Assembly: GCF_963667775.1 (NCBI RefSeq)
Contig: NZ_OY764015.1
Location: 1,381,168-1,445,167 of the forward strand
Source of the DNA: an uncultured Trichococcus sp.
GTDB lineage: Bacteria; Bacillota; Bacilli; Lactobacillales; Aerococcaceae
DNA: 64,000 nucleotides
Direction: 5' to 3'
Below the pieces are notes generated by a model. That model was not told the origin of the DNA. It saw only the letters and a list, made by a program, of their open reading frames with translations, and made no database searches. Made by a program: the position numbers and the translations under genes. Positions 8,151 through 44,392 of this stretch are shown here, in pieces. Within the stretch, counting starts at the first letter, position 1. Each line of letters begins with the position of its first letter.

Positions 8151-8301
8151 CCCTGGCGGCTTTTCTTCTAAGAATAACCGTCAAGAATGCAAAAGCGGAT
8201 AACATTATTGCAAACGGATACAAAAGCGCGGATTTGTAGGGAATTTGTGGATCTTTGCATCATCAGCGAAGACCACACTGCGGCGAACAAATCCGGGCTC
8301 T

Positions 8302-8438
8302 CCAGCTCCGGGGAACGTTTGCCTCGCCGGAGGAAACAACTATGATTATGCGTTGTTCTCCGCTCAAGCCTTCCTCGCCGGAATTGAGCTGGTGAATCCA
8401 CACCCAATCTCCGGCGAGCCACCATCTTACCGGAAATC
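8302..8438. repeat. Three-hairpin intergenic element, copy B
   Basis: Dyads begin at 8306, 8358 and 8409 (spacing 52 and 51). The first (CTCCGGGG...CCTCGCCGGAG) is well paired; the second and third are degenerate. It lies between the 3' end of the YdcF-like gene and the rloA promoter, both on the minus strand. Confidence 0.7.
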
Positions 8439-14741: not shown

Positions 14742-15368
14742 ATGAACGTTTTAGTAGTAAAAGGAAACAACAGACCAGCAGAGGAAGCCATTTCTTCAAA
14801 AATGTATGAAACTTTTTTGGCTGCAGCCAAAGAAAATGAAAAATTGAACATCACAACTTATAACGTCTTTTCAGAAGACATGCCATACTTAGGCCAAGAT
14901 CTTTTCGGCGCTTACGGCAAAATGGCAGTCGGCGAAGAATTGACTGATATCGAAACACGCCTTTTGGCAGCAAAACAAAAAGCAATGGATGCAGTGACTG
15001 CTGCTGACGTAATCGTATTCGCCTTCCCATTGTGGAACTTGACGATCCCAGCTAAATTGCAAACATTCATCGACTACATCTTTGCAGCTGGCTTTGCTTT
15101 CAAATATGATGAAACAGGCACAATGGTTGCTTTGATGCCTGAAAAGAAAGTTATCCTATTGAACGCTCGTGGAGGCTACTACTCCGCTCCTGAAATGGCC
15201 CCAATGGATATGGGCGTCAACTACATGCGCAACGTATTCGGCGGCGTATTCGGAATGGAAATCATCGGCGAAGTTGTCATCGAAGGACATGCAGCAGTTC
15301 CCGATCAAGCAGCAACCATCATCGCAGAAGGCTTGGCGAAAGTCGAAGCATTGGCTAAATCACTTTAA
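14742..15368 (+). CDS. azoR: FMN-dependent NADH-azoreductase / NAD(P)H quinone reductase family
   Basis: The 208-residue flavodoxin-fold protein shows the AzoR pattern: NVLVVKGNNRP at the N-terminus (FMN phosphate loop), FAFPLWNLTIPAKLQTFIDY (conserved P-x-W-N segment) and LLNARGGYYS. Homologues reduce quinones and azo compounds with FMN and NADH in the cytoplasm. GTGGAGGA precedes ATG 14742; an earlier in-frame ATG at 14694 has no ribosome site. No terminator separates it from the structured RNA starting 12 bp after its stop, so that RNA could be a 3' extension of this mRNA. Confidence 0.85.
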   Translation: MNVLVVKGNNRPAEEAISSKMYETFLAAAKENEKLNITTYNVFSEDMPYLGQDLFGAYGKMAVGEELTDIETRLLAAKQKAMDAVTAADVIVFAFPLWNLTIPAKLQTFIDYIFAAGFAFKYDETGTMVALMPEKKVILLNARGGYYSAPEMAPMDMGVNYMRNVFGGVFGMEIIGEVVIEGHAAVPDQAATIIAEGLAKVEALAKSL

Positions 15369-15380
15369 AATTAGAAAATC

Positions 15381-15755
15381 GGAACGGGTTCGTTCAGCCC
15401 TGAGTAAGGAAACACTGTGACCTAATCGGTCAAGTGTATCATGCCTCTAAGCGATTGAAATCGCAAGAGTCATGACAATTTAGGAAATCTGGCCTCGCAA
15501 CGTTCCCTACGGTCACCTTGTACTGGGAGTCTAAGGAATGAATCCCTAAGACTCCCATGCAAATGAGCATCGCAGAGCGCAATTGCTGAGAGACTTTCTG
15601 GTTTAGAGGAATCAACGTGACCGTACCGGTCAGTTGTATCATGTTTCTAAGCCATCAAAGATGGCAAGAACCATGACAAGTCGAACAGTATGTCTTGTCT
15701 CGCAGAGACAAGAGGTTCCTTATTCTTTTTTCCGAAGGGCTAACCCGTGAAGCTA
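15381..15755 (+). ncRNA. Putative structured RNA, long form
   Basis: The region is closed by a long-range helix: ACGGGTT (15384-15390) and AGCCCT (15396-15401) pair with AGGGCT (15736-15741) and AACCCGT (15742-15748). Inside are two homologous arms exactly 200 bp apart (15417-15478 and 15617-15679), each with a GACC-N5-GGTC hairpin and a long hairpin with an AA/A internal loop. The arms differ by three compensatory base-pair changes. A further hairpin TGGGAGTC/GACTCCCA lies at 15524-15557. Core blocks recur in a shorter copy at 26290-26465. A strong terminator follows at 15782. Strand is inferred from that terminator. I cannot assign an RNA family. Confidence 0.65.
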
Positions 15756-15781
15756 GCCATCAATTTAAACAGAGCAATACG

Positions 15782-15819
15782 GACGCGCCCAGTAATCGGA
15801 CTGGTGCGCGTCTTTTTTT
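15782..15819 (+). terminator. Strong intrinsic terminator after the long structured RNA
   Basis: GACGCGCCCAGT pairs with ACTGGtGCGCGTC (one bulge), loop AATCGG, then seven Ts. It ends the azoR/structured-RNA transcript ahead of zinT. Confidence 0.88.
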
Positions 15820-16732: not shown

Positions 16733-17070
16733 CTCTCGACTATTTTGTTACCGGAAACCTCTCAACACACGACAGTTCGCTCTTCTGTCGGGCTTCAGAC
16801 CAGGACGGTATCCGATTTACCCGAGAGTTAACCAGGCTGTCGACTGTTCGGTTACCGGAAACCTCTCAACACACGACAGTTCGTCCTTTTGTCGGGCATC
16901 AGACCAGGACGGTATCCGATTTACCCGAGAGTTAACCAGTCTCTCGACTGTTTTGTTACCGGAAACCTCTCAACACACGACAGTTCGCTCTTCTGTCGGG
17001 CATCAGACCAGGACGGTATCGCCTTTACCCGAGAGCACGCCAGGCTGTCGACTGATCAGGTAACGATTTC
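16733..17070. repeat. 104-bp tandem repeat, three full copies plus a partial
   Basis: Units begin at 16733, 16837 and 16941, with a truncated fourth at 17045: an exact 104-bp period. Each runs from CTCTCGACT or CTGTCGACT through GTTACCGGAAACCTCTCAAC, a CGACAG...CTGTCG hairpin, and GACCAGGACGGTATC to TTTACCCGAGAG. 104 is not a multiple of three, so ORFs across it are not conserved in frame and the DNA is probably non-coding. A related single copy is at 44290-44392. Confidence 0.85.
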
Positions 17071-17181: not shown

Positions 17182-20067
17182 TCAGAAACACCGCTTGTCG
17201 ACCCAGCCTAAAGTTTTCCCGTTCAGCATCACTAGCGCGTAATGGCCGTCCGCCGATTCCTGGATGACCTGAACAGTGATATTCAAGTAGGAACTGGTCA
17301 GGCCGAGCATCGTGAATCCCGATGTACCCCATGGTAAACTATCGATCGAATAGCCGACCGAGCCGATCGTGGCGGCGTAATTCACCGCTTTCGTATTCAA
17401 AACCGCCAACGCGCGGTAATCGACCCAGCCTAAGTTCTGGCCATCCAACTGGATCAACTTGTAATTCCCATCAATGGATTCCGCAACAACCTTCACGAGG
17501 CTGCCCAAATAATTGTTCGTGCTATTTAGATACTGGTATCCGGCAGTACCCCAAGGCAAACTGTCGATCGAATAGTTCTGGCCGGAAACGCCGGCATAAT
17601 AGGAAACCTGGCGCGCATTGCTGAAAGCCCGTTTGTCGATCCAGCCGACCCGTTGGCCGTCGATGGCGATTTCTGCGTAGGCACCGTTCGTGCTTTCCCG
17701 CAGCACAGTGGCTAATTTCCCGAAATAAGCCGCTGCATCGGCAATCTTGGTATAACCCGGCTCACCCCACGGCAAGCTATCGATTGAATAAATCCCGTTC
17801 ATGATCGGGAGATTATAATTGACGGCAACAGTCGAAAAGTTCTGCAGGCCCCTGCTGTCGATCCATCCCAATGGCTTTCCGTCAAGCGAAATGTACGCGT
17901 AGGCCCCATTCGACGTTTTGCGCGTCACCACGACTTCTTTCCCGTAATAATTCGCGGATGAATCCAGGTACACGTATCCCGCTTCGCCCCAAGGTTGGCT
18001 GTCGATCGAATAATTCGTGCCGGAAACGATAGCCGTATAATGAGCAGCCGTTGCATCGAAACTCTCGAAGGCGCGGTAATCGACCCACCCCAGCGGCAAA
18101 CCATTGTAAGCCAAACATAGATAGACGCCGTCCGCAGATTTGCCGATCACAGTGACGTTTTTGCCGACATAAGAGCTGCTCCAGTCAAGCGTCCGGTAGC
18201 CGGCACTCCCCCATGGCAGACTGTCGATCGAGTAGCTCCCCTTGCGGATGACCGCGTTGTAGCTCGGAAATGCCGCGTTAAAGGTCCGCTTATCGACCCA
18301 GCCCAATTTGATTCCGTCTACCGAAATTTCGGCATAGATTCCGTTGGCCGTTTCCCGGATGACCGTCGCCATTTTCCCATAGTACGCCGCCGTATCGCCG
18401 ACATGAACAAAGCCCGGCTCGCCCCACGGCAAGGAATCGATCGAGTACCCGCTGTTCATGATCGGCAACGTATAACTTGCCGGAACGGTGGATAAGGTCT
18501 TCAGCGCATCCCTATCGATCCAGCCGACTTCCTTCCCGGCGTAGGAAATAAGCGCGTACTGTCCGTCAAGCGTCTGCTTCGTGACCGTGACTTCCTTGCC
18601 GTAATAGTTGGAACAAGGCTCCAAATATTTATAGCCGATCGTACCCCAAGGCAGGCTGTCGATCGAAAAATTGGTGCTCGATACGATTGCGTTGAAATTT
18701 ACGGCCACTGTCTTCGGTCCATCGAATTTGGTCAGATCGTAGGCGCTGATGATGGCGTTCAGCTTGGTATAATAGGACGAATCCGTCGCATAACGACCCG
18801 TCAAATACAGCGTGGCATCCTGATAACTGGTCGTATTTTCCTTCCAGGTGCCTTTGTAGTAGTTCGGATCCCAACTGACGCCGTTGCGCAGTTTTTCCGC
18901 ATAATCGATCATTGATTCGTAATAGGAAGGGTACAATCTGAAAAAGGCATCGATCCAGATGATCGACCCGTCGCTTTCTTCCTCCCATGTGCGCATCACA
19001 ATCGAATTGCCGGCGTATGAACCTTTGATTCCGAAGAGATTGTTGCCGACGGTGCTGAGCTTGCTGGTACCATAAGCGGTCTCCAGCGAAGCTTGGGCGA
19101 CCATGACCGAAGCGTAGAGATTGTAGTCGTTGCCGATTTCGGTGGCGTACTGCCCGAGATAGTTCACGAATTCCGCTGTTGTGGCGAATGTCCGCGTTTC
19201 CTCGTCGATCTCGGCATAGGCATTCGTACCGTTGACGCTCAGCAGCTGGCCGATGTTGATGAGTGTACTCGTCAAACGGTTCCACCGCATCAGACTGGTT
19301 ACGTCTGTGTTGTAGTGCGTGGCTATTTTTTGCAGCGTGTCACCGGACTGGACATAATAATACCAAGTCCCTTTCGCTTCCTCCACGACCGGAGCGGTTG
19401 AAGCGACAGTTGTTTCAATCAGCAGAGGCGCCTGAACCGTTTCCTCGTTTTGTTCGGTATCCGTGTATTCCGGATTGCTCTCTTCAGTCTGTTCGGTATT
19501 ACTATCATCATTTGTCACTTCCGGCTGCGTCTCCTGCCCAGCCGATGAAGACGGTTCGGTTGGGATTGTTTGCTGGTCTTCTGCCTCTTCACCAGGCACC
19601 ACTTCTGTAACTTCAGCCACAGGCACCAACCACTCTGTTTGCGCCAACAAAAAAGTTTGGGTAGCATCCTTATAGACTTTCACCTGCAAAGTAGCGGTGC
19701 CATCCGGAAGCGCCCCCAAAGGAACAGCAAAACATCCGACTTCATCGGCGGTCTGCTCGCCGACTTTGCTCTCTTCTGCACAAACAACTACGTACGCGTT
19801 CGGTTGCGTCATGCCGGTCAGTTGATCCGCACCGTAACCGCCAGCATCCAGAATGGTTTCGACAGGCATCGGCATTGCAGCTTCTGTTTCTTCTTCCGTT
19901 GATGATTCTGTTGCTTGCATCGGATCTGTTGATTCGATCGGCGCCGATTCCCCAACGGTGCCATCCCCTTCTTCGGCAAAAGCAACCTTGTTGCCGACAA
20001 GCAAGCTTGCGGCAATGCTTGATAAAGCGATATAAGTTCGTAGGTATTTTTTGTGACCAATCTTCAT
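17182..20067 (-). CDS. Secreted GW-module N-acetylglucosaminidase (autolysin, GH73)
   Basis: 961 residues, extracellular. Order: signal peptide (cleavage near AFA, residue ~31); acidic Ser/Thr/Glu linker with a beta-sandwich-like stretch (~68-150); one LysM (~236-279, YYVQSGDTLQKIATHYNT); a GH73 glucosaminidase domain (~295-450) with catalytic Glu in ASLETAYG and NNLFGIKGSY; and seven GW modules (~455-961), each marked by YSIDSLPWG and GW[IV]D. GH73 cuts the GlcNAc-MurNAc glycan bond; GW modules bind lipoteichoic acid and hold the enzyme on the cell surface. GGAGG precedes ATG 20067. It probably acts in daughter-cell separation. Confidence 0.93.
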   Translation of the reverse strand: MKIGHKKYLRTYIALSSIAASLLVGNKVAFAEEGDGTVGESAPIESTDPMQATESSTEEETEAAMPMPVETILDAGGYGADQLTGMTQPNAYVVVCAEESKVGEQTADEVGCFAVPLGALPDGTATLQVKVYKDATQTFLLAQTEWLVPVAEVTEVVPGEEAEDQQTIPTEPSSSAGQETQPEVTNDDSNTEQTEESNPEYTDTEQNEETVQAPLLIETTVASTAPVVEEAKGTWYYYVQSGDTLQKIATHYNTDVTSLMRWNRLTSTLINIGQLLSVNGTNAYAEIDEETRTFATTAEFVNYLGQYATEIGNDYNLYASVMVAQASLETAYGTSKLSTVGNNLFGIKGSYAGNSIVMRTWEEESDGSIIWIDAFFRLYPSYYESMIDYAEKLRNGVSWDPNYYKGTWKENTTSYQDATLYLTGRYATDSSYYTKLNAIISAYDLTKFDGPKTVAVNFNAIVSSTNFSIDSLPWGTIGYKYLEPCSNYYGKEVTVTKQTLDGQYALISYAGKEVGWIDRDALKTLSTVPASYTLPIMNSGYSIDSLPWGEPGFVHVGDTAAYYGKMATVIRETANGIYAEISVDGIKLGWVDKRTFNAAFPSYNAVIRKGSYSIDSLPWGSAGYRTLDWSSSYVGKNVTVIGKSADGVYLCLAYNGLPLGWVDYRAFESFDATAAHYTAIVSGTNYSIDSQPWGEAGYVYLDSSANYYGKEVVVTRKTSNGAYAYISLDGKPLGWIDSRGLQNFSTVAVNYNLPIMNGIYSIDSLPWGEPGYTKIADAAAYFGKLATVLRESTNGAYAEIAIDGQRVGWIDKRAFSNARQVSYYAGVSGQNYSIDSLPWGTAGYQYLNSTNNYLGSLVKVVAESIDGNYKLIQLDGQNLGWVDYRALAVLNTKAVNYAATIGSVGYSIDSLPWGTSGFTMLGLTSSYLNITVQVIQESADGHYALVMLNGKTLGWVDKRCF

Positions 20068-20137: not shown

Positions 20138-20247
20138 CTCTGCGTCATTAACGCATCATTACTTTTCCGTTACAAGCGTTTTCACAATTAAGGCGCTGCC
20201 GCCTCACTGATCCGTGGTTTCGCCTGAGCTGACTGATTATACGAACG

Positions 20248-20382
20248 TTTACCTCCGGCGAGCAATCCTCGGCCGGAGGTAAACGCTGTTTTTAGTTGTC
20301 TCCTCCGGTGGGCTTCCGCTCGCCGGAGGAGGGATCGAATTTCGAGGCTTTCCTCCGGCGAGTCGCGGCTTCGCCGGAACTG
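20248..20382. repeat. Three-hairpin intergenic element, copy D
   Basis: Dyads begin at 20253, 20303 and 20353, exactly 50 bp apart, each of the form CTCCGGYGAG...CGCCGGAG. It lies between divergent genes, about 180 bp upstream of the glucosaminidase start and 200 bp from the lacR-like promoter. Confidence 0.82.
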
Positions 20383-20510
20383 GACCATCTTCACCAAATC
20401 CCCCACCCATGTTCATTAATGATTGTTTGTGTTTCTTTCATCCTCTATGGAAAACGTATCCAAACGATTAATAAGCAATTGATTTCACCGCCACGGCATT
20501 AAAAAACACA

Positions 20511-26262: not shown

Positions 26263-26289
26263 TTGTTTTTTAATTATGTAAGAAAAGCT

Positions 26290-26608: not shown

Positions 26609-29074
26609 TTATTCGAAATAGGCCACAATCCCTGCCGTGATGGCTTTCGCCAAAGTCGTCTGATAGCTGGCCGTAGTCAGTTTCGCTAATTCGGTTGGCG
26701 AGCTCATGTATCCCAATTCCAGCAATACAGCCGGAATTGCCGTTTCGCGTAGAACAGCAAAAGTATTCCGACGCACACCACGATCGATCGCACCGGTATT
26801 TTCAACCAAGGAACCCTGGATTGCCGATGCTAAATCTGCACTTTCCAGAATCCGTGTCGGGTCATTATGCATGTCCTCATTGATGATCGGTGGATAGTCG
26901 GAGTCGTATTCATAGTAATATGTCTCAATTCCCGTGACGGTTGCATTCGCAGGCATCGCATTGTGGTGGATGCTGACGAAAATATCCGCTCCCGAAGCAT
27001 TTGCTTCTTTCGAACGCTCCAACAAACCAACATATGTATCGGTTGTGCGCGACATGATGACCGTGAATCCCAAAGCTTCCAGATTCGCTTTCACCTTGTT
27101 CGAAACGGCTAGATTGATCGTTTTTTCCATCACATTGCTGTAGGTCGCGCCCGCTTCCCAGCCGCCATGTCCAGGATCAAGGAACACAGTATGATTCAGA
27201 TCCGCAACCGTCAAGGCATCCTTGGCGATCCAACCCAATACTTTTCCGTTCAGGGAAGCCAATGCCCAGAGGACTCCATCCGCAGTCAACTTTTCTTGGC
27301 TGACCGTTACGCTGCTGCCGAGGTAACTCGCTGTGTAACCGATTGTTTGGTAGCCTTCCGTCCCCCACGGCAAGGTGTTGATGCCGTCCGTACCGCGTAT
27401 GATTGTCGCCTTATAGAATGTGTCGGTCGTTGAGATGACCTTATTGAAAAGTGCGTCCTTGGCGATCCAACCGATTTCCTTTCCATTGATGGAAATCAGA
27501 GCCCACGTCACGCCATTATCCGTTACTTGCTCTTTCGTGACAGTCACTTTTTGCCCCAGATACGTATAACTGTAGCCGATTGTTTTGTACCCTTTTGTAC
27601 CCCATGGAGAGGTGTTGATGCCATCCGTTGCCCGCAAAACAGTCGCTTGGTAGAAAACAGACTTCGAAGAGACAACTTGAACATACGTTGGTTCCGTTAA
27701 AGCGGCTTTTGCGATCCAGCCAAGCTGTTTCCCATCTATCGAGATCAAGGCCCAGGTCACGCCATTGTCCGCCACTTTTTCTTGAACGACGGTCACTTGC
27801 TTACCGAGATAGTCGGAGCTTGTGCCGATGGTTTGATACCCTCTCGTTCCCCAAGGCTGCGTATTGATGCCATCCCCACTGCGCGTGACTGTAGCCGGAT
27901 AATCCACGTCGATCGTCGACAAAATTTCAACATAGATAACCTTTCTCAATGCATCCTTGGCGATCCAACCCAATTGTCTGCCGTTTTGGGTGATCAAGGC
28001 CCAAGTAACGCCATTATCAGCCACTTTTTCTTGCGTGACAAGTACTTGCTGATTCATATAGGACGTACTGTTCGCAATTGTTTTGTAGCCTCTGGTCCCC
28101 CAAGGTTGCGTGTTGATGGCATCGCCTGCGCGGACAATTGTGGCATCGTAATCAACGGTTGTCGTCGACACAATCTGCACATAAGTCGGTTCAGTCAAAG
28201 CTCCTGTGGCGATCCAGCCCAATTGTTTGCCATCCACTGTGATCAACGTCCAGGTTACGCCGTTTTCAAGCAACTTCTCTTGCGTCACCGTGGCGGTCTT
28301 GCCCAGGTAAGCAGAGCTGAGAGCCACGGTCTTGAAGCCGCGCATGCCCCATGGGACAGTGTTGATCGCATCTGTGCCGCGCGTGATGGTGGCGGTGTAC
28401 TCGATATCGGTCGTCTCCAACACTTCCAGATAATCCGGTTCGGTCAAAGCGTCCTTGGCGATCCAGCCGAGTTGGGTGCCGTCCACTGAAATCAACGCCC
28501 AGGTAACACCATTTTCAACTACTTTTTCTTCGCTGATTGTGACTGTTTCACCAAGATAGTCGGCACTGTAGGCTAGTATCTTGAACCCCCGCGTCCCCCA
28601 TGGTGCTGCGTTGATGGCATCCGTGCCACGGGTAATCGTTGCCGTGTACTCGACTGCGGTCGTCGACACGACCTCAAGGTAATCCGGCTCGACCGGCGCG
28701 GATAAGGCGGTTTTCGCAATCCAGCCAATAGCCGTTCCGTCCACTGAGATATATGCCCACGTTACGCCATTATCGGCCAGTTTTTCTTGCGTCACCGCGA
28801 CCGTCTTGCCTGTGTAGTCAGCACTCCAGCCAATCGTTTCGAATCCTGGCGTTCCCCAAGGCTGCGTATTGATCGCATCCGTTGCCGACAGCACGCGCGC
28901 CTCATAATCAACAACCGTAGTCGACAGGATCTGCACACTGGCTTGCGTCACAATGGTGGTTATTTCGTTCAGCTCTTCGGCAAAAGTCGCAGGTGCACTT
29001 GCCAGACCTAAAGTCAGCAGGACTGCACTTGCCAGCGCGACTCTGCGCCCATGCCCTCTATTTCCATGAAACAT
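26609..29074 (-). CDS. Secreted GW-module N-acetylmuramoyl-L-alanine amidase (Amidase_3)
   Basis: 821 residues, extracellular. A signal peptide (cleavage after ATFA) is followed by seven GW modules (each ~80 residues with DAIN or DGIN, PWGT and GWIAK) and a C-terminal zinc Amidase_3 domain (~last 190 residues): VFLDPGHGGWEAGA (zinc His), MEKTINL (zinc Glu), VSIHHNAMP (zinc His) and LLELGYMSS (catalytic Glu). It cleaves the MurNAc-L-Ala bond. GAAGGAGG supports ATG 29074; the TTG at 29095 lacks a site. It has the same number of GW modules as the GH73 autolysin at 17182-20067 but a different module subtype and opposite domain order. Confidence 0.93.
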   Translation of the reverse strand: MFHGNRGHGRRVALASAVLLTLGLASAPATFAEELNEITTIVTQASVQILSTTVVDYEARVLSATDAINTQPWGTPGFETIGWSADYTGKTVAVTQEKLADNGVTWAYISVDGTAIGWIAKTALSAPVEPDYLEVVSTTAVEYTATITRGTDAINAAPWGTRGFKILAYSADYLGETVTISEEKVVENGVTWALISVDGTQLGWIAKDALTEPDYLEVLETTDIEYTATITRGTDAINTVPWGMRGFKTVALSSAYLGKTATVTQEKLLENGVTWTLITVDGKQLGWIATGALTEPTYVQIVSTTTVDYDATIVRAGDAINTQPWGTRGYKTIANSTSYMNQQVLVTQEKVADNGVTWALITQNGRQLGWIAKDALRKVIYVEILSTIDVDYPATVTRSGDGINTQPWGTRGYQTIGTSSDYLGKQVTVVQEKVADNGVTWALISIDGKQLGWIAKAALTEPTYVQVVSSKSVFYQATVLRATDGINTSPWGTKGYKTIGYSYTYLGQKVTVTKEQVTDNGVTWALISINGKEIGWIAKDALFNKVISTTDTFYKATIIRGTDGINTLPWGTEGYQTIGYTASYLGSSVTVSQEKLTADGVLWALASLNGKVLGWIAKDALTVADLNHTVFLDPGHGGWEAGATYSNVMEKTINLAVSNKVKANLEALGFTVIMSRTTDTYVGLLERSKEANASGADIFVSIHHNAMPANATVTGIETYYYEYDSDYPPIINEDMHNDPTRILESADLASAIQGSLVENTGAIDRGVRRNTFAVLRETAIPAVLLELGYMSSPTELAKLTTASYQTTLAKAITAGIVAYFE

Positions 29075-38012: not shown

Positions 38013-41000
38013 ATGAAAAAGAGATTTATGATACTGCCTCCTTTCTTAGTCATATTTATGATGTACGGCGCGCTGCCGGATATATATGCAGCAACAGAAG
38101 GGACAACAGAGTCAATTGAAACGACACTCGAAGAGCCCACTCTCTATGAACCGCCACCAGGTATCCAACTGCCGGAAACAGTGATTGAAACCGACGACGC
38201 AAGCGAACCCGCTACAACAACTACGGAATCCCCACCCACAGAGATGACCGAAGCAGAAGATCAGCTATCGGAAACCGATGCACTTCCAACAGAAGAAGCA
38301 CTGCCGGAAACGGAAGATCCGCAACCAACCACCACAGAAACAACCACACCGGCGACCACGCCTACTGAGGACGCGACCATACCGGAAGCAACCGACCAGA
38401 CCACATCTACCACGGAAACACCAGAACCCGAAACGACTATTCCAACCGAACAACCAGCAGAACAACCAACACCGGAAACAGAAAGCCCGATTGTGACGGA
38501 AGTACCGGGTGAGAGCCCTGCCCCTACCGTTCCGACAGAGCCAGAGCCTCCCGAAATCTCAGAATCCACAACAGCAAATGAACCGATGGAAGAACCGGAA
38601 GTTGCGGAAGAACCGGAAGCCGAAATCACTTATGAAGAACCCATGCAGATGACTGCCGCCGCTTCCACAAACGACTACTCGGGCCCTTCTCAGATCATCA
38701 ATTCGGTGGATATCTCGGATAACGTGATTGCCTTGACTTTCGATGACGGCCATTCATACGGGAATCTTTACGACATCCTCTATAATTTAAAATATCTGGG
38801 CGTAAAGGCCACTTTCTTCATGAATGGTGATGCGGACGCATCCTTGTTGCAACAGATTGTTGCGGATGGGCATCAATTGGCGAATCACACCTATTCACAT
38901 GGTGATTCCACGACATTGTCGTCATCTGCCTTGGCCAATGACATCAACTTGATGGAAGACTACATCCAGGAAACGACCGGCACTTCATCCTTGCCGTTTT
39001 TCCGACTCCCTTACGGTTCCTACAACAGTTCCGTTTTGGACACGGTCGGAAGTCTTGGCTACCAATATACGATCGGTTGGGATGTCGACACGCTCGATTG
39101 GACCGGCATTTCCGAAACTGCCATCAGCAGTGCGGTCGTCAACAACGTCAGACCCGGCTCCATCGTTCTGATGCATGCCAGCGTCGGTGCAGCCAATACG
39201 CCTGAATCTTTGTGGTATTCCATTGCTGCGTTGAAAGAATCCGGCTACAGCTTCTCCACAGTCAGCAATCTCTTGGCATTGGGCGGATACTTCGCAATCG
39301 ATGAAGAAGAACCAATCGAAGAAGATTATTCGGATGCTATCCTATCGGAAGTCATCAACCAAGTGGAAACCGGTGAGAAGACCATTTCCTTGACCATCAG
39401 CGATGCATCCGATGCCGAAAATGTCCGCGAGATTCTGGCGAACCTGGCCACAATGGATGTGAAGGCCACCTTCTTCCTGAATGGCCTGACCGATGCTACC
39501 GTGATCAACGAAATCGTCCAACAAGGTCATGAAATCGGTAACCACACCTACACACACGATGCTGCCACCGAGATGACCGTGGACGAAATCGTCTGGGAAC
39601 TCAACACATTGGAAACATTGGTGCAGGACAGTACAGGCGGCGCAACCACACGCCCTTACTTCCGCGCTCCGATGGGTGAAACAAATGATCGCGTTCTGGC
39701 GACTGTCGCAAGTATGGGTTATCAGTACACCATCGGCTGGACCGTCGATACCCGCGATTGGAGCGGTACATTGACTTCAGCCCAAGTCAGCTCTGCAGTC
39801 GTGAATAATTTGGCACCAGGGGCCATCTTCCTGTTGCACGGAAATTCTTCCGCCAACACAACACCTGCAGCCTTATTGCAGATGATCACAGCCATCCGTC
39901 AACTCGGCTACAACTTCGCTACCATCAGCGGCTTGCTCGCTTTGGAAGGCTCCTATCCGACAACACCCGGGGAAGAACCTGGTGAAACAACCCCTGATCC
40001 AGATCCGAATCCGCCGAGCACCACTTCACCCGCCGAAATCGTGAACCAAGTCAACACCGATGTGCCGGTCATTTCCTTGACCATCAGTGACGCATCCGGA
40101 ACCGAGAACGTGCGGCAGATCCTCAACAACCTCGCACTGCTGGGAATCAAAGCTACCTTCTTCCTGAATGGTATGACCGATCCGAGCCTGATTGATGACA
40201 TCATCGCCCAAGGCCACGAAATCGGCAACCACACCTACAGTCATGAAGATGCCACGCTGATGACCGAAGCAGAATTGACGGCAGACCTCAATAACCTTGA
40301 ACAACTCGTCCAAGATGCAACCGGAACAAGCACAACACCTTACTTCCGTGCACCTATGGGGGAAACCAATACGACCGTTTTGGCGACCGCCGGCAGTCTC
40401 GGCTATGAATACGCCATCGGCTGGACAATCGAAACGCGCGATTGGAGCGGAACACAAACCGCAGCCCAAATCAGTTCCTCAATCGTCAACAGTGTAGCGC
40501 CTGGTTCTATCCTGCTCTTGCACGGCAGCGCCGATGCAGTTGCGACACCTGCCGCAATCCTGCAGATGGTGGCAGCTGTCCAAGCACTTGGTTATCGCTT
40601 CGAGACCATAACCGGTCTGTTGGCTTATCAAGGCATCTATACCAACACGCCTCCGGTAGTGGTTGATCCGGATGACGGGGATGATGGTGAGATCGACTAC
40701 GGAACCGGACCATCACGTTTTGTAAACCATGTCGACACTGGCAGGAACGTTATCGCCCTCACCTTCGATGATGGGGACGATTACACGAACTTGCATGACA
40801 TCATCTGGAACCTCAACTACCTGGGCGCGAAAGCCACCTTCTTCCTGAACGGTACGACCGATCCGGGATTGATGGCCGAACTCGTCGCATCCGGACACCA
40901 ATTAGCGAACCACACTTACTCGCACAATGACGATTCCACCTCTCTTTCAGCAGATGAATTGGCTTACGATCTGGCGCTGATGGAGGAATACATCCTGGAA

Positions 41001-44000
41001 ACGACGGGCGTATCTTCCAAACCTTATTTCCGAGCACCGGCTGGTGTCTACAATGATGCGGTCCTCGAAACGGTCGGCAGCCTCGGCTATGCCTACACCA
41101 TCGGCTGGACGCAGGACACACGCGACTGGGAAGGCTTTTCGGACACCGCGATCGCAGCCAGCGTCACCGATTATCTGGATGCCGGTTCCATCTACTTGTT
41201 GCATGCCAATCCTACTTCCGTGGGCACTCCTGAATCGTTATGGTACATCGTTGCGGAAGCCCGCAGACAAGGCTTCGAATTCGTCACGATCGAAGAATTG
41301 ATGGCGCTGGAAGGTGTCTATGATGACGGCGGAGATGATGGAGACGACAGCACTTACGAAGGTGTCTCCCAATTCATCGAACAGATCGACACGAACCAAA
41401 AAGTAGTCTCCTTGACATTCGATGATCTCGGCGACAGCCAAGTGCTCCAAGAGATTTTGGATGTGCTGTATGAAATGGATGTCAAAGCCACTTTCTTCCC
41501 GGACGGAACAGTCGATCCGGATATGCTCTATCAAGTCGTTTCCCAAGGACATGAAGTCGGCAATCACACCTATTCACACGAATTTTCGACTTATCTGACA
41601 ATCGAAGAATTGACCGCGGAAATGAATGCCTTGGAAAACAAAGTCCAAAATGCGACAGGCACGAGCACCAAACCGCTCTTCCGTCCGCCTTACGGTGACT
41701 TTGACCAATCCGTGTTGGAAACGGCAGGCAGTCTCGGCTACAAATACACGGTCGGCTGGTCTGTAGACAGCTTGGACTATCTGGGGACACTCTCTCCTGG
41801 AGATATCGCCTTCAATGTGCTGGATCAATTGGCTCCGGGCTATATCTACTTGATGCATGCCGTCCCTGAATCCAGCAGCACACCCGGCTCCCTGTACGAA
41901 ATCATCGCAACGGCCCGCGAATTGGGTTACTCTTTCGCTACCATCACCGATCTGATCGCACTGGATGGTGTGTATGAAGCCGATCCCGGCGACCCGAGCG
42001 ATCCAGACGATCCTATTGAAACCACGCTTTCCCAAGTGATCGAACAAGTAACGACCGGCGAAAAAGTCGTTTCGCTTACCATCAGCGATGCTTCCGATGC
42101 TGCAAACGTAAGGCAGATACTGGCGAACTTGGCGACACTGAACGTCAAAGCCACCTTCTTCCTGAACGGCCTGACCGATCCGACCTTGATCGACGACATC
42201 ATCGCCCAAGGCCACGAAATCGGCAACCATACCTACAGTCACGAAGATGCCACCCAAATGACGGAAGCCCAATTGACAACCGATCTCAACAACCTTGAGC
42301 AGCTCGTCCAAAACGCCTCCGGCACAAGCACAAAACCTTATTTCCGCGCTCCGATGGGGGCAACGAACACCACTGTGCTCACGACCGCCGGCACGCTCGG
42401 ATACGCCTACACAATCGGCTGGACGGTCGACACCCGTGACTGGTCCGGAACATTGACTGCAGCTCAAGTCAGCTCCGCGGTCGTGAACAACCTGACGCCT
42501 GGATCCATCTTCCTGCTGCACGGCAACAGTTCTGCAGCCACTACACCGGCCGCTTTGCTGGAAATGGTCGCAGCCGCACGCGCACTCGGGTATGAATTCA
42601 GCACCATCACAGGGTTGTTGGCGCTCCAAGGCATCTATCCTGATCCGGTTGACCCGGTCGATCCGGTTGATCCCGTCGACCCTGATCCACCGGTCATCAC
42701 AACACCTTCGCAACTGGTCAACCAAGTCAATACCAACCAACAAGTCATTTCCTTGACCATCAGCGATGTATCCAGTGCCGAAAATCTCCGCCAAATATTG
42801 ACGAATTTGGCCCTATTGGATGTGAAGGCGACCTTCTTCCTGAACGGGCTCACCGATCCGACTCTGATCGATGATATCCTTGCCCAAGGCCACGAAATCG
42901 GCAACCATACTTTCAGCCATGACGATGCCACCCAAATGACGACCGCCGAATTGACGGACGATCTGAATCAATTGGAGCAACTGGTGAAGACAGCGACCGG
43001 CGAAAGCACAACCCCTTACTTCCGCGCTCCGATGGGGGCAACGAACGCAACCGTATTGGCAACAGCCGGCAGCCTCGGCTACAGCTACACGATCGGTTGG
43101 ACAGTCGACACCCGCGATTGGTCCGGAACACTTTCCGCCAGCCAAGTCAGTGCGGCTGTCCTGAACAACCTTTCCGCTGGTGCCATCTATCTGTTGCACG
43201 GCAACAGTTCAGCCAGTACAACCCCTACAGCGCTGTTGGAAATGATCACAGCCGCCCGCGCCCTTGGTTATCAATTCACGACTATCAGCGGGTTGCTTGC
43301 CTTTGAGGGCGACTACAGTTATGAAGAGCCTGAACCGGAATTCGTTATCCCAGTGCTGGATGAATTCGGGAACATCACCAACCCGGTCATCACCCGGAAC
43401 GATGTCACCGATGTCTACAATCCATTAGGGACAGCAGATCCGTTCATCATCCTCGTCGACGGCGTCTACCACATGTTCTTCGAAGTTTTGAGGGACTATA
43501 ACGTCGCAACCCAAAGCTTCACTGACAGTGTCGCGCATGCCTACAGTAGCGACCTCGCCAATTGGACCTACACCCAAGTGGTTCTTGGTCCGGAAACGGA
43601 TGGCGTCCGCGCTGCCTATCCGAACGTCTTCGAGTACAACGACAGCTATTACATGGTTCCTGATCAAGCCGGCAATGTCGAAGCGTTCTTTGCTACTTCC
43701 TTCCCGCTCGGTTGGGACTATCACTCCACTTTATTGGAAGGGAACTTCGTTGACACGAACGTCTTCGAAGTCGGTGGCACATGGTACTTGACGACATCCG
43801 AACAACCGTACAACAGCATCTCTTTGTACTACAATACATCTGGCGACTGGCGCAATGACCAATGGCAACTGCATCCTGCCGGTCTGATCATCGAAGAGGA
43901 CTGGTCGGAAAAAGGTTACCGCGGTGCCGGCAACCCATTCGTGTTTGAGGATTATGTCGTGATGCCGGTACAGGTGACCCCTGTCGCAACCAATATCTAC

Positions 44001-44240: not shown

Positions 44241-44263
44241 GGCAAAAGTGAATAGTTAAGGTA

Positions 44264-44292
44264 GGGGCCATCTCATTTCGGGATGGCCCCTT
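44264..44292 (+). terminator. Hairpin after the seven-NodB gene
   Basis: GGGGCCATC pairs with GATGGCCCC over an 8-nt loop, followed only by TT. Probable but weak terminator. Confidence 0.45.
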
Positions 44293-44392
44293 CTGTCGGG
44301 CTTCTGCCCAGGACGGTATCTCATTTACCCGAGAGTTCACCAATCTGTCGACTATTCGTGGCACCAACAACACTGAACACCCGACACACGTA
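44290..44392. repeat. Solitary copy related to the 104-bp repeat of 16.7 kb
   Basis: Contains CTTCTGTCGGGCTTC, CAGGACGGTATC, TTTACCCGAGAGTT and CTGTCGACTATTCG in the same order and spacing as the tandem units at 16733-17070, then diverges. It lies between two convergent genes. Confidence 0.75.

Follow-up and report, generated by a model that had tools for sequence, protein, structure and literature searches.

A long copy of a dispersed, modular hairpin-forming repeat lies downstream of azoR in an uncultured Trichococcus

We found that the DNA located downstream of azoR in an uncultured Trichococcus sp. is one long copy of a dispersed hairpin-forming repeat and not a lone RNA gene. The window referred to below is the whole analysed stretch of 64,000 nucleotides (contig NZ_OY764015.1, positions 1,381,168 to 1,445,167 of the forward strand). 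A preliminary description had interpreted the locus as an unassigned structured RNA with two duplicated arms; the pairing behind this interpretation proved to be real and conserved, whereas the discrete RNA gene turned out to be a modular repeat present in many copies, at sites that are unoccupied in close relatives. The repeat is probably a non-autonomous, MITE-like modular hairpin DNA element of the BOX kind that is often located beside terminators.

The gene called azoR, whose protein matches Pfam Flavodoxin_2, ends at position 15368, and the repeat copy occupies positions 15373..15766 of the plus strand, on which all the features of this locus are given (about 390 bp; 382 nt from AAAA to CTAG). 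An intrinsic terminator stands beside the insertion at about 15780..15818; it is host sequence that the empty sites have too, and the location between azoR and a terminator was as originally described. Direct reading of the sequence also bore out the 13-bp long-range closing helix, in which positions 15384-15390 and 15396-15401 pair with 15736-15748. Its 5' half (15384..15401) consists of ACGGGTT and AGCCCT with the bulge CGTTC between them and its 3' half (15736..15748) of AGGGCT and AACCCGT, and both halves covary across copies. Between them lies arm 1 (15404..15480, bounds approximate), composed of two hairpins with the hairpin part starting at 15413; base copies have no arm at this place. 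It is followed by the scaffold strand TTTAGGAAATCTGG of a conserved inner helix (15480..15493), which was defined by the alignment of base forms, and by the hairpin arm of optional module B (15494..15563, bounds approximate), a block that is either present or absent among copies. The core ATGAGCATCGCAGAGCGCAAT (15563..15583) is common to the Trichococcus base forms and to most of the long forms printed. Comparison of copies delimited the 5' part of optional module C (15584..15601, bounds approximate), and its 3' part (15680..15731) contains the hairpin CTTGTCTC/GAGACAAG. Arm 2 (15602..15680, bounds approximate), the second copy of the arm repeat, is situated between the two parts of module C. 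The folding z-score of the azoR-site stretch was -6.67 for the plus strand and -8.08 for the minus strand, and on either strand none of 100 shuffles was equally stable.

The hairpins of the two arms could be read directly from the sequence as they had been reported. A GACC-N5-GGTC hairpin is present in both arms (GACC-TAATC-GGTC at 15419-15431 in arm 1, GACC-GTACC-GGTC in arm 2), and the long hairpin carries GCGATT/AATCGC in one arm and GCCATC/GATGGC in the other; an AA/A internal loop and a pyrimidine mismatch are present in both. The compensatory changes between the arms are likewise evident, and the short hairpin was found to covary beyond GACC/GGTC as well (CACT/AGTG in arm 1, CAAC/GTTG in arm 2). 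The arms are indeed related, but their description as a duplication within one RNA did not hold, as each is a diverged copy of a second dispersed repeat, which is also found on its own at other places. The covariation between the arms is real but no proof of an RNA gene. The proposal that the stretch might belong to an ornate large RNA class was not supported either. No family was matched at the gathering score when the window was scanned against Rfam 15, and the four weak matches of the stretch in an E-value scan (best E 0.35) included none to HEARO, ROOL, GOLLD, OLE or raiA; in addition, the pairing has little strand bias. Among 18 loci containing relatives of the repeat, the Rfam scan at the gathering score matched only tRNAs and one tRNA-Sec.

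The query of 391 bases matched the genome of the window and 12 of the 12 other genomes of the genus searched, and overall 17 of 60 genomes belonging to 5 of 38 genera. In the window's own Trichococcus genome this query gave 97 matching pieces at a loose limit, and a pattern that left out truncated and odd copies recognised at least 35 distinct copies in which both ends are present. Five of the 50 stretches retrieved are apparently not the element: L070 and L077 align over 20 and 17 bases, respectively, and no alignment was obtained for L073, L083 and L101. The window contains one further copy at 26282..~26565 (plus strand), which carries the 3' tail and has no arms. The base form has a core of 119-121 nt, often followed by a 3' tail of about 100 nt, which the long copy at azoR does not have, and it folds into a closing helix, an A+T-rich inner helix interrupted by a conserved bulge and internal loop, and a variable tip in the form of a long imperfect hairpin. 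Copies vary by whole hairpin blocks at fixed places (the 3' tail, module B, module C and the arms), and a further block is nested inside arm 1 in at least three copies (L052, L053, L057). A few copies have a different closing helix, GGTACAAGC.../...GCTTGGACC, in which pairing is kept. Immediately 3' of the copies there is an A-run, which often belongs to an intrinsic terminator. In a folding-based scan, 20 of the 35 copies had a terminator-like hairpin no more than 80 nt away on their 3' side and 5 had one on their 5' side, compared to 23 of 300 random window stretches, which as mostly coding DNA represent a soft control. The corresponding numbers in a strict terminator scan were 7 and 3 of 35 copies, with 22 hits among 1000 random stretches; the folding-based scan was preferred because the strict one misses interrupted stems, including that of the window's own terminator.

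Comparison of orthologous sites demonstrated that the element is present in some genomes and absent from others. In a joined-flank search with 12 element sites, that at azoR among them, in 13 genomes of the genus, a match crossing the junction was obtained in another genome for all 12 sites, and the alignment of the azoR site and 11 other sites showed that the host sequences on either side of the element are contiguous in relatives. The azoR site is empty, with adjoining flanks, in G002, G005, G010 and G012, and the series of sizes at this site runs from no element through the 119-nt base core (G004, G011) and a 317-nt form (G003), in which arm 1 is present and arm 2 absent, to the 382 nt of the window. 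In G008 there is no element at azoR, but the downstream sequence is different. A target duplication of about 12 bp (TATATAAGAAAA) was recognised at one site; a clean duplication is thus visible in 1 of 11 aligned sites, with A-runs hiding the rest. We infer that most of the presence and absence reflects insertion. At the L125 site an end-like remnant (AAAAGCGGAACG) is kept in L141, L150 and L161, and at the L118 site tail-like sequence is kept in L140 and L148. These short element-like remnants at two sites imply that losses occur too and that an empty site is not always one that was never occupied. The remnants hint at excision or deletion.

The arm repeat constitutes a second dispersed family. 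The covariance model of the arm matched arm 1 at G000:C1:1396581-1396644 and arm 2 at G000:C1:1396781-1396845. The rows of the arm alignment comprised 23 of 33 arms found by pattern, four arms from G036 and the two arms of the window. Both hairpins are common to the 28 distinct arms from the genome of the window and from others; both sides change in 12 of 22 pairs, 97.9% of the cells pair, and the covariation score of 0.349 was reached by none of 500 shuffles. The count of further pair types in these 28 arms was not above that of shuffles, 485 of 500 of which reached it. Under strict filters the arm model matched 35 of 246 genomes of the order, representing 13 of 64 genera. Sixteen matches were found in the window's own genome at E <= 0.01, the last two of them weak; by coordinates, 6 fall within base elements and 10 elsewhere, and five of these 10 were read directly as free-standing arms (L054, L056, L109, L113, L122). 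Some free arm copies in this genome adjoin tRNA genes (L055, L122), and in G023 the free copy L016 is apparently located beside a 5S rRNA gene, as read from its sequence. A search of viral contigs with one exact arm pattern gave no matches. The long copy at the azoR site appears to have picked up two copies of this smaller second repeat.

Pairing in the base form is conserved among homologues. In 12 base forms 92.1% of the cells pair and both sides change at 18 of 35 pairs. In a larger set of 106 rows, which were the distinct sequences among the best 150 of 164 base-model matches in 99 loci, 93.1% of the cells pair, double changes occur at 31 of 31 pairs and the covariation score was reached by none of 500 shuffles; the alignment of this set was fitted to the structure, which flatters the pairing figures. 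When the partner strands were slid against each other, pairing fell to 38-61%. Watson-Crick pairs account for 2760 of 2895 cells, and the mismatches look nearly strand-symmetric.

Where a pair has to form in a single RNA strand, G-U is acceptable and A-C is not; where it has to form in either strand of DNA, the two are equivalent. Across all 31 pairs of the base form we counted 56 G-U and 42 A-C, and across the 28 pairs that are left when three poorly paired positions are removed, 45 and 34, respectively; in the arms the counts were 4 and 5. By comparison, 50 tRNAs from the same loci had 62 G-U and 3 A-C, a control in which the offsets were picked for best pairing and the A-C count is lowered as a result, and in ARAGORN tRNAs, where only standard pairs are bracketed, G-U accounted for 83 of 1093. 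The difference between the base form and the tRNA control (Fisher P = 7e-8) serves as a guide only, since the G-U and A-C cells are not independent events. Strand-specific pairing with G-U kept and A-C lost, which would be expected of a functional RNA, was not observed in these counts of non-independent cells. As G-U hardly outnumbers A-C, the pairing seems to be maintained at the level of DNA and not of a single RNA strand. Effects in RNA may ride on the DNA-level pairing. The covariation of stems in distant genera might also point to an RNA under selection that demands strict pairing.

The covariance model of the base form was built from 12 sequences (six from Trichococcus, five from G059 and one from G058), and these training rows and their genomes match it by construction. 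At E <= 0.001 it matched 161 of the 395 Lactobacillales genomes searched, and these matches spread over 25 of 80 genera. At E <= 1e-5, 62 of 398 genomes of the class matched, in 19 of 146 genera, and 32 of these 62 lie outside the order. Of 299 genomes of the phylum, 4 matched; all four are Bacilli, the window's own genome being among them. The large searches with the base and arm models used strict filters that left 9 to 21 candidates to be scored per genome, and the copy numbers they give are lower bounds; ten genomes scored more deeply with the base model had 9 to 100 matches each. In G059 the base form makes up near-identical tandem arrays of 121 bp (L017, L186, L201, L206), and a match spacing of 121-122 bases suggests that G131 and G352 also have tandem arrays. 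A plasmid search with one f3/g38 copy and its flanks (L209) gave no match.

The repeat has several features of a MITE: it is short, occurs in high copy number, is present or absent at orthologous sites, and has terminal inverted repeats in the form of the covarying closing helix near its ends. If the repeat is such an element, its DNA would have to fold, as a single strand or a cruciform, to be acted on by a trans-acting transposase or recombinase, and the pairing would be kept for this reason; alternatively, hairpin copying errors might keep perfecting the stems. The element could grow as other hairpin repeats land in its arms or replace them, and when transcribed within a 3' UTR it might, as a side effect, alter mRNA ends or stability. 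An autonomous partner with matching ends was not found among the four Y1 genes of the genome, the gene type examined. One of these four lies beside a repeat copy, in an IS200-like element situated directly at the 5' end of that copy (L130, 1200-1340). A Y1 (IS200-type) transposase was rejected as the mobiliser, as a near-identical IS copy (L131) has no repeat; given this sister copy, the IS and the repeat at L130 are merely neighbours.

We consider it unlikely that the repeat is instead a functional structured RNA, either with its own gene or as a 3' UTR element, that spread to many loci by copying and was retained because of its RNA fold, e.g., for the protection of mRNA 3' ends or for protein binding. 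Strong covariation, the conserved bulge and internal loop, and frequent placement between a gene and its terminator would all suit such an RNA, and in the available text on the bcr1-bcr18 repeats of Bacillus cereus, transcription is given for 84 of 165 and 62 of 155 copies (PMC3446304). However, the same sites are empty in close relatives, G-U is hardly preferred over A-C, both strands fold well and there is no Rfam match. Orientation relative to the 5' gene also shows no preference (18 versus 17), while on the 3' side 22 of the neighbouring genes face the element and 13 point away, both counts being based on a crude ORF picker. Improbable, too, is the idea that the pairing is a mutational by-product, with hairpin-templated repair (quasi-palindrome correction) perfecting the arms and recombination spreading the copies without a dedicated enzyme. 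The dominance of Watson-Crick pairs, the near symmetry of the mismatches and the near-identical tandem units in G059 are compatible with this process, yet it leaves unexplained both the occurrence of the repeat at many unrelated A-run sites and the conservation of unpaired motifs across genera.

It is very improbable that the repeat is a composite repeat of the BOX type in the strict sense, i.e., a member of the same family as the pneumococcal boxA-boxB-boxC. The design is the same, as far as the available text on BOX describes it (modular and intergenic, with paired ends and optional inner modules), this text reports BOX-type relatives in Streptococcus suis (PMC3049150), and the base model matches many genomes of g24 (evidently Streptococcus). 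The BOXA1R primer sequence was present in 18 of 247 genomes of g24, but the 20 BOXA1R loci gave no significant match to the base model: three matches were obtained at E <= 1, the best of which (14.3 bits, E 0.12) lies outside BOX, and a weak one (12.1 bits, E 0.54) falls in boxA of L284 and covers 21 nt of the terminal stem only. Moreover, the inner modules are not tandem copies of boxB; tandem boxB units were not found in the window copy, whose arms stand about 200 bp apart in different modules.

The reading of the repeat as a MITE-like DNA element can be extended, tentatively and with some doubt, to one ancient superfamily of folding DNA elements throughout the class Bacilli, in which the fold would be selected in DNA and not in RNA. 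Such elements might grow by capturing hairpin repeats, and a host or trans-acting enzyme reading the conserved bulge and internal loop might insert copies next to terminators; the S. suis BOX-type repeats, Efa-1 and perhaps bcr would then be local branches. As a rule, small interspersed repeats are described for one species at a time, whereas one structural model here links copies across many genera of Bacilli. The strand-symmetry count suggests that stems can truly covary although they have no role as RNA, which is a pitfall for pipelines that search for new RNAs, and the conserved folded DNA together with its position beside terminators offers a concrete target for finding the mobilising enzyme.

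Other repeats were noted in the same window. Three tandem units of about 104 bp that are 90% alike lie at 16733-17065, and a fourth (62%) is found 27 kb away, at 44241-44365. Inverted repeats of the CTCCGGCGA type are located at 8301-8336, 20223-20308 and 20349-20384, and similar CCGG-rich hairpins downstream of azoR in L163 and L164 perhaps represent a third dispersed family. Positions 17182-20067 (minus strand) encode a protein of 961 aa that matches the Pfam glucosaminidase and LysM families and has seven GW-domain stretches, i.e., a cell-wall hydrolase, and repeats of about 249 bp at 27211-28537 may encode units like those of this GW-domain protein. At 38796-43297 seven copies of about 110 nt, spaced about 660 bp apart, are accompanied by longer blocks related to them, a pattern like that of a large repetitive protein.

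Hairpin-based short mobile repeats are known from REP/RAYT and from the palindromic repeats derived from IS200/IS605; unlike these, the present repeat was found with no associated Y1 transposase. In the available text of Croucher et al. (2011, PMC3049150), BOX is portrayed as composite, structured and probably parasitic, and as nearly absent from other streptococci except for S. mitis and the BOX-type families of S. suis. The azoR-type repeat resembles BOX of Streptococcus pneumoniae and the S. suis families, as characterised there, in being composite, intergenic, of high copy number and presumably parasitic and non-autonomous, with end modules that pair and optional inner ones. It differs in that two of its inner modules belong, as copies, to a separate repeat family and in that its base form occurs in many genera. 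The bcr1-bcr18 repeats of the B. cereus group are likewise small, interspersed and MITE-like and often lie in UTRs, according to the available text (PMC3446304); a title cited there calls bcr1 specific to this group, whereas the repeat described here, when set beside that description, spans many genera of Bacilli. Efa-1 of Enterococcus faecalis, listed with 65(18) copies in the available text of Cozzuto et al. (2008, PMC2267715), is an intergenic double hairpin of 163 bp; it is likewise a structured intergenic repeat and, from this description, may be a species-level member of the present family. We found no description of this family in the open-licence literature on repeats of Trichococcus, Bacillus, Enterococcus, Streptococcus and Firmicutes. 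The repeat is thus of a known kind, a MITE-like composite repeat, in an unusual form, as it nests copies of one repeat family within another and is connected across Bacilli by a common structure.
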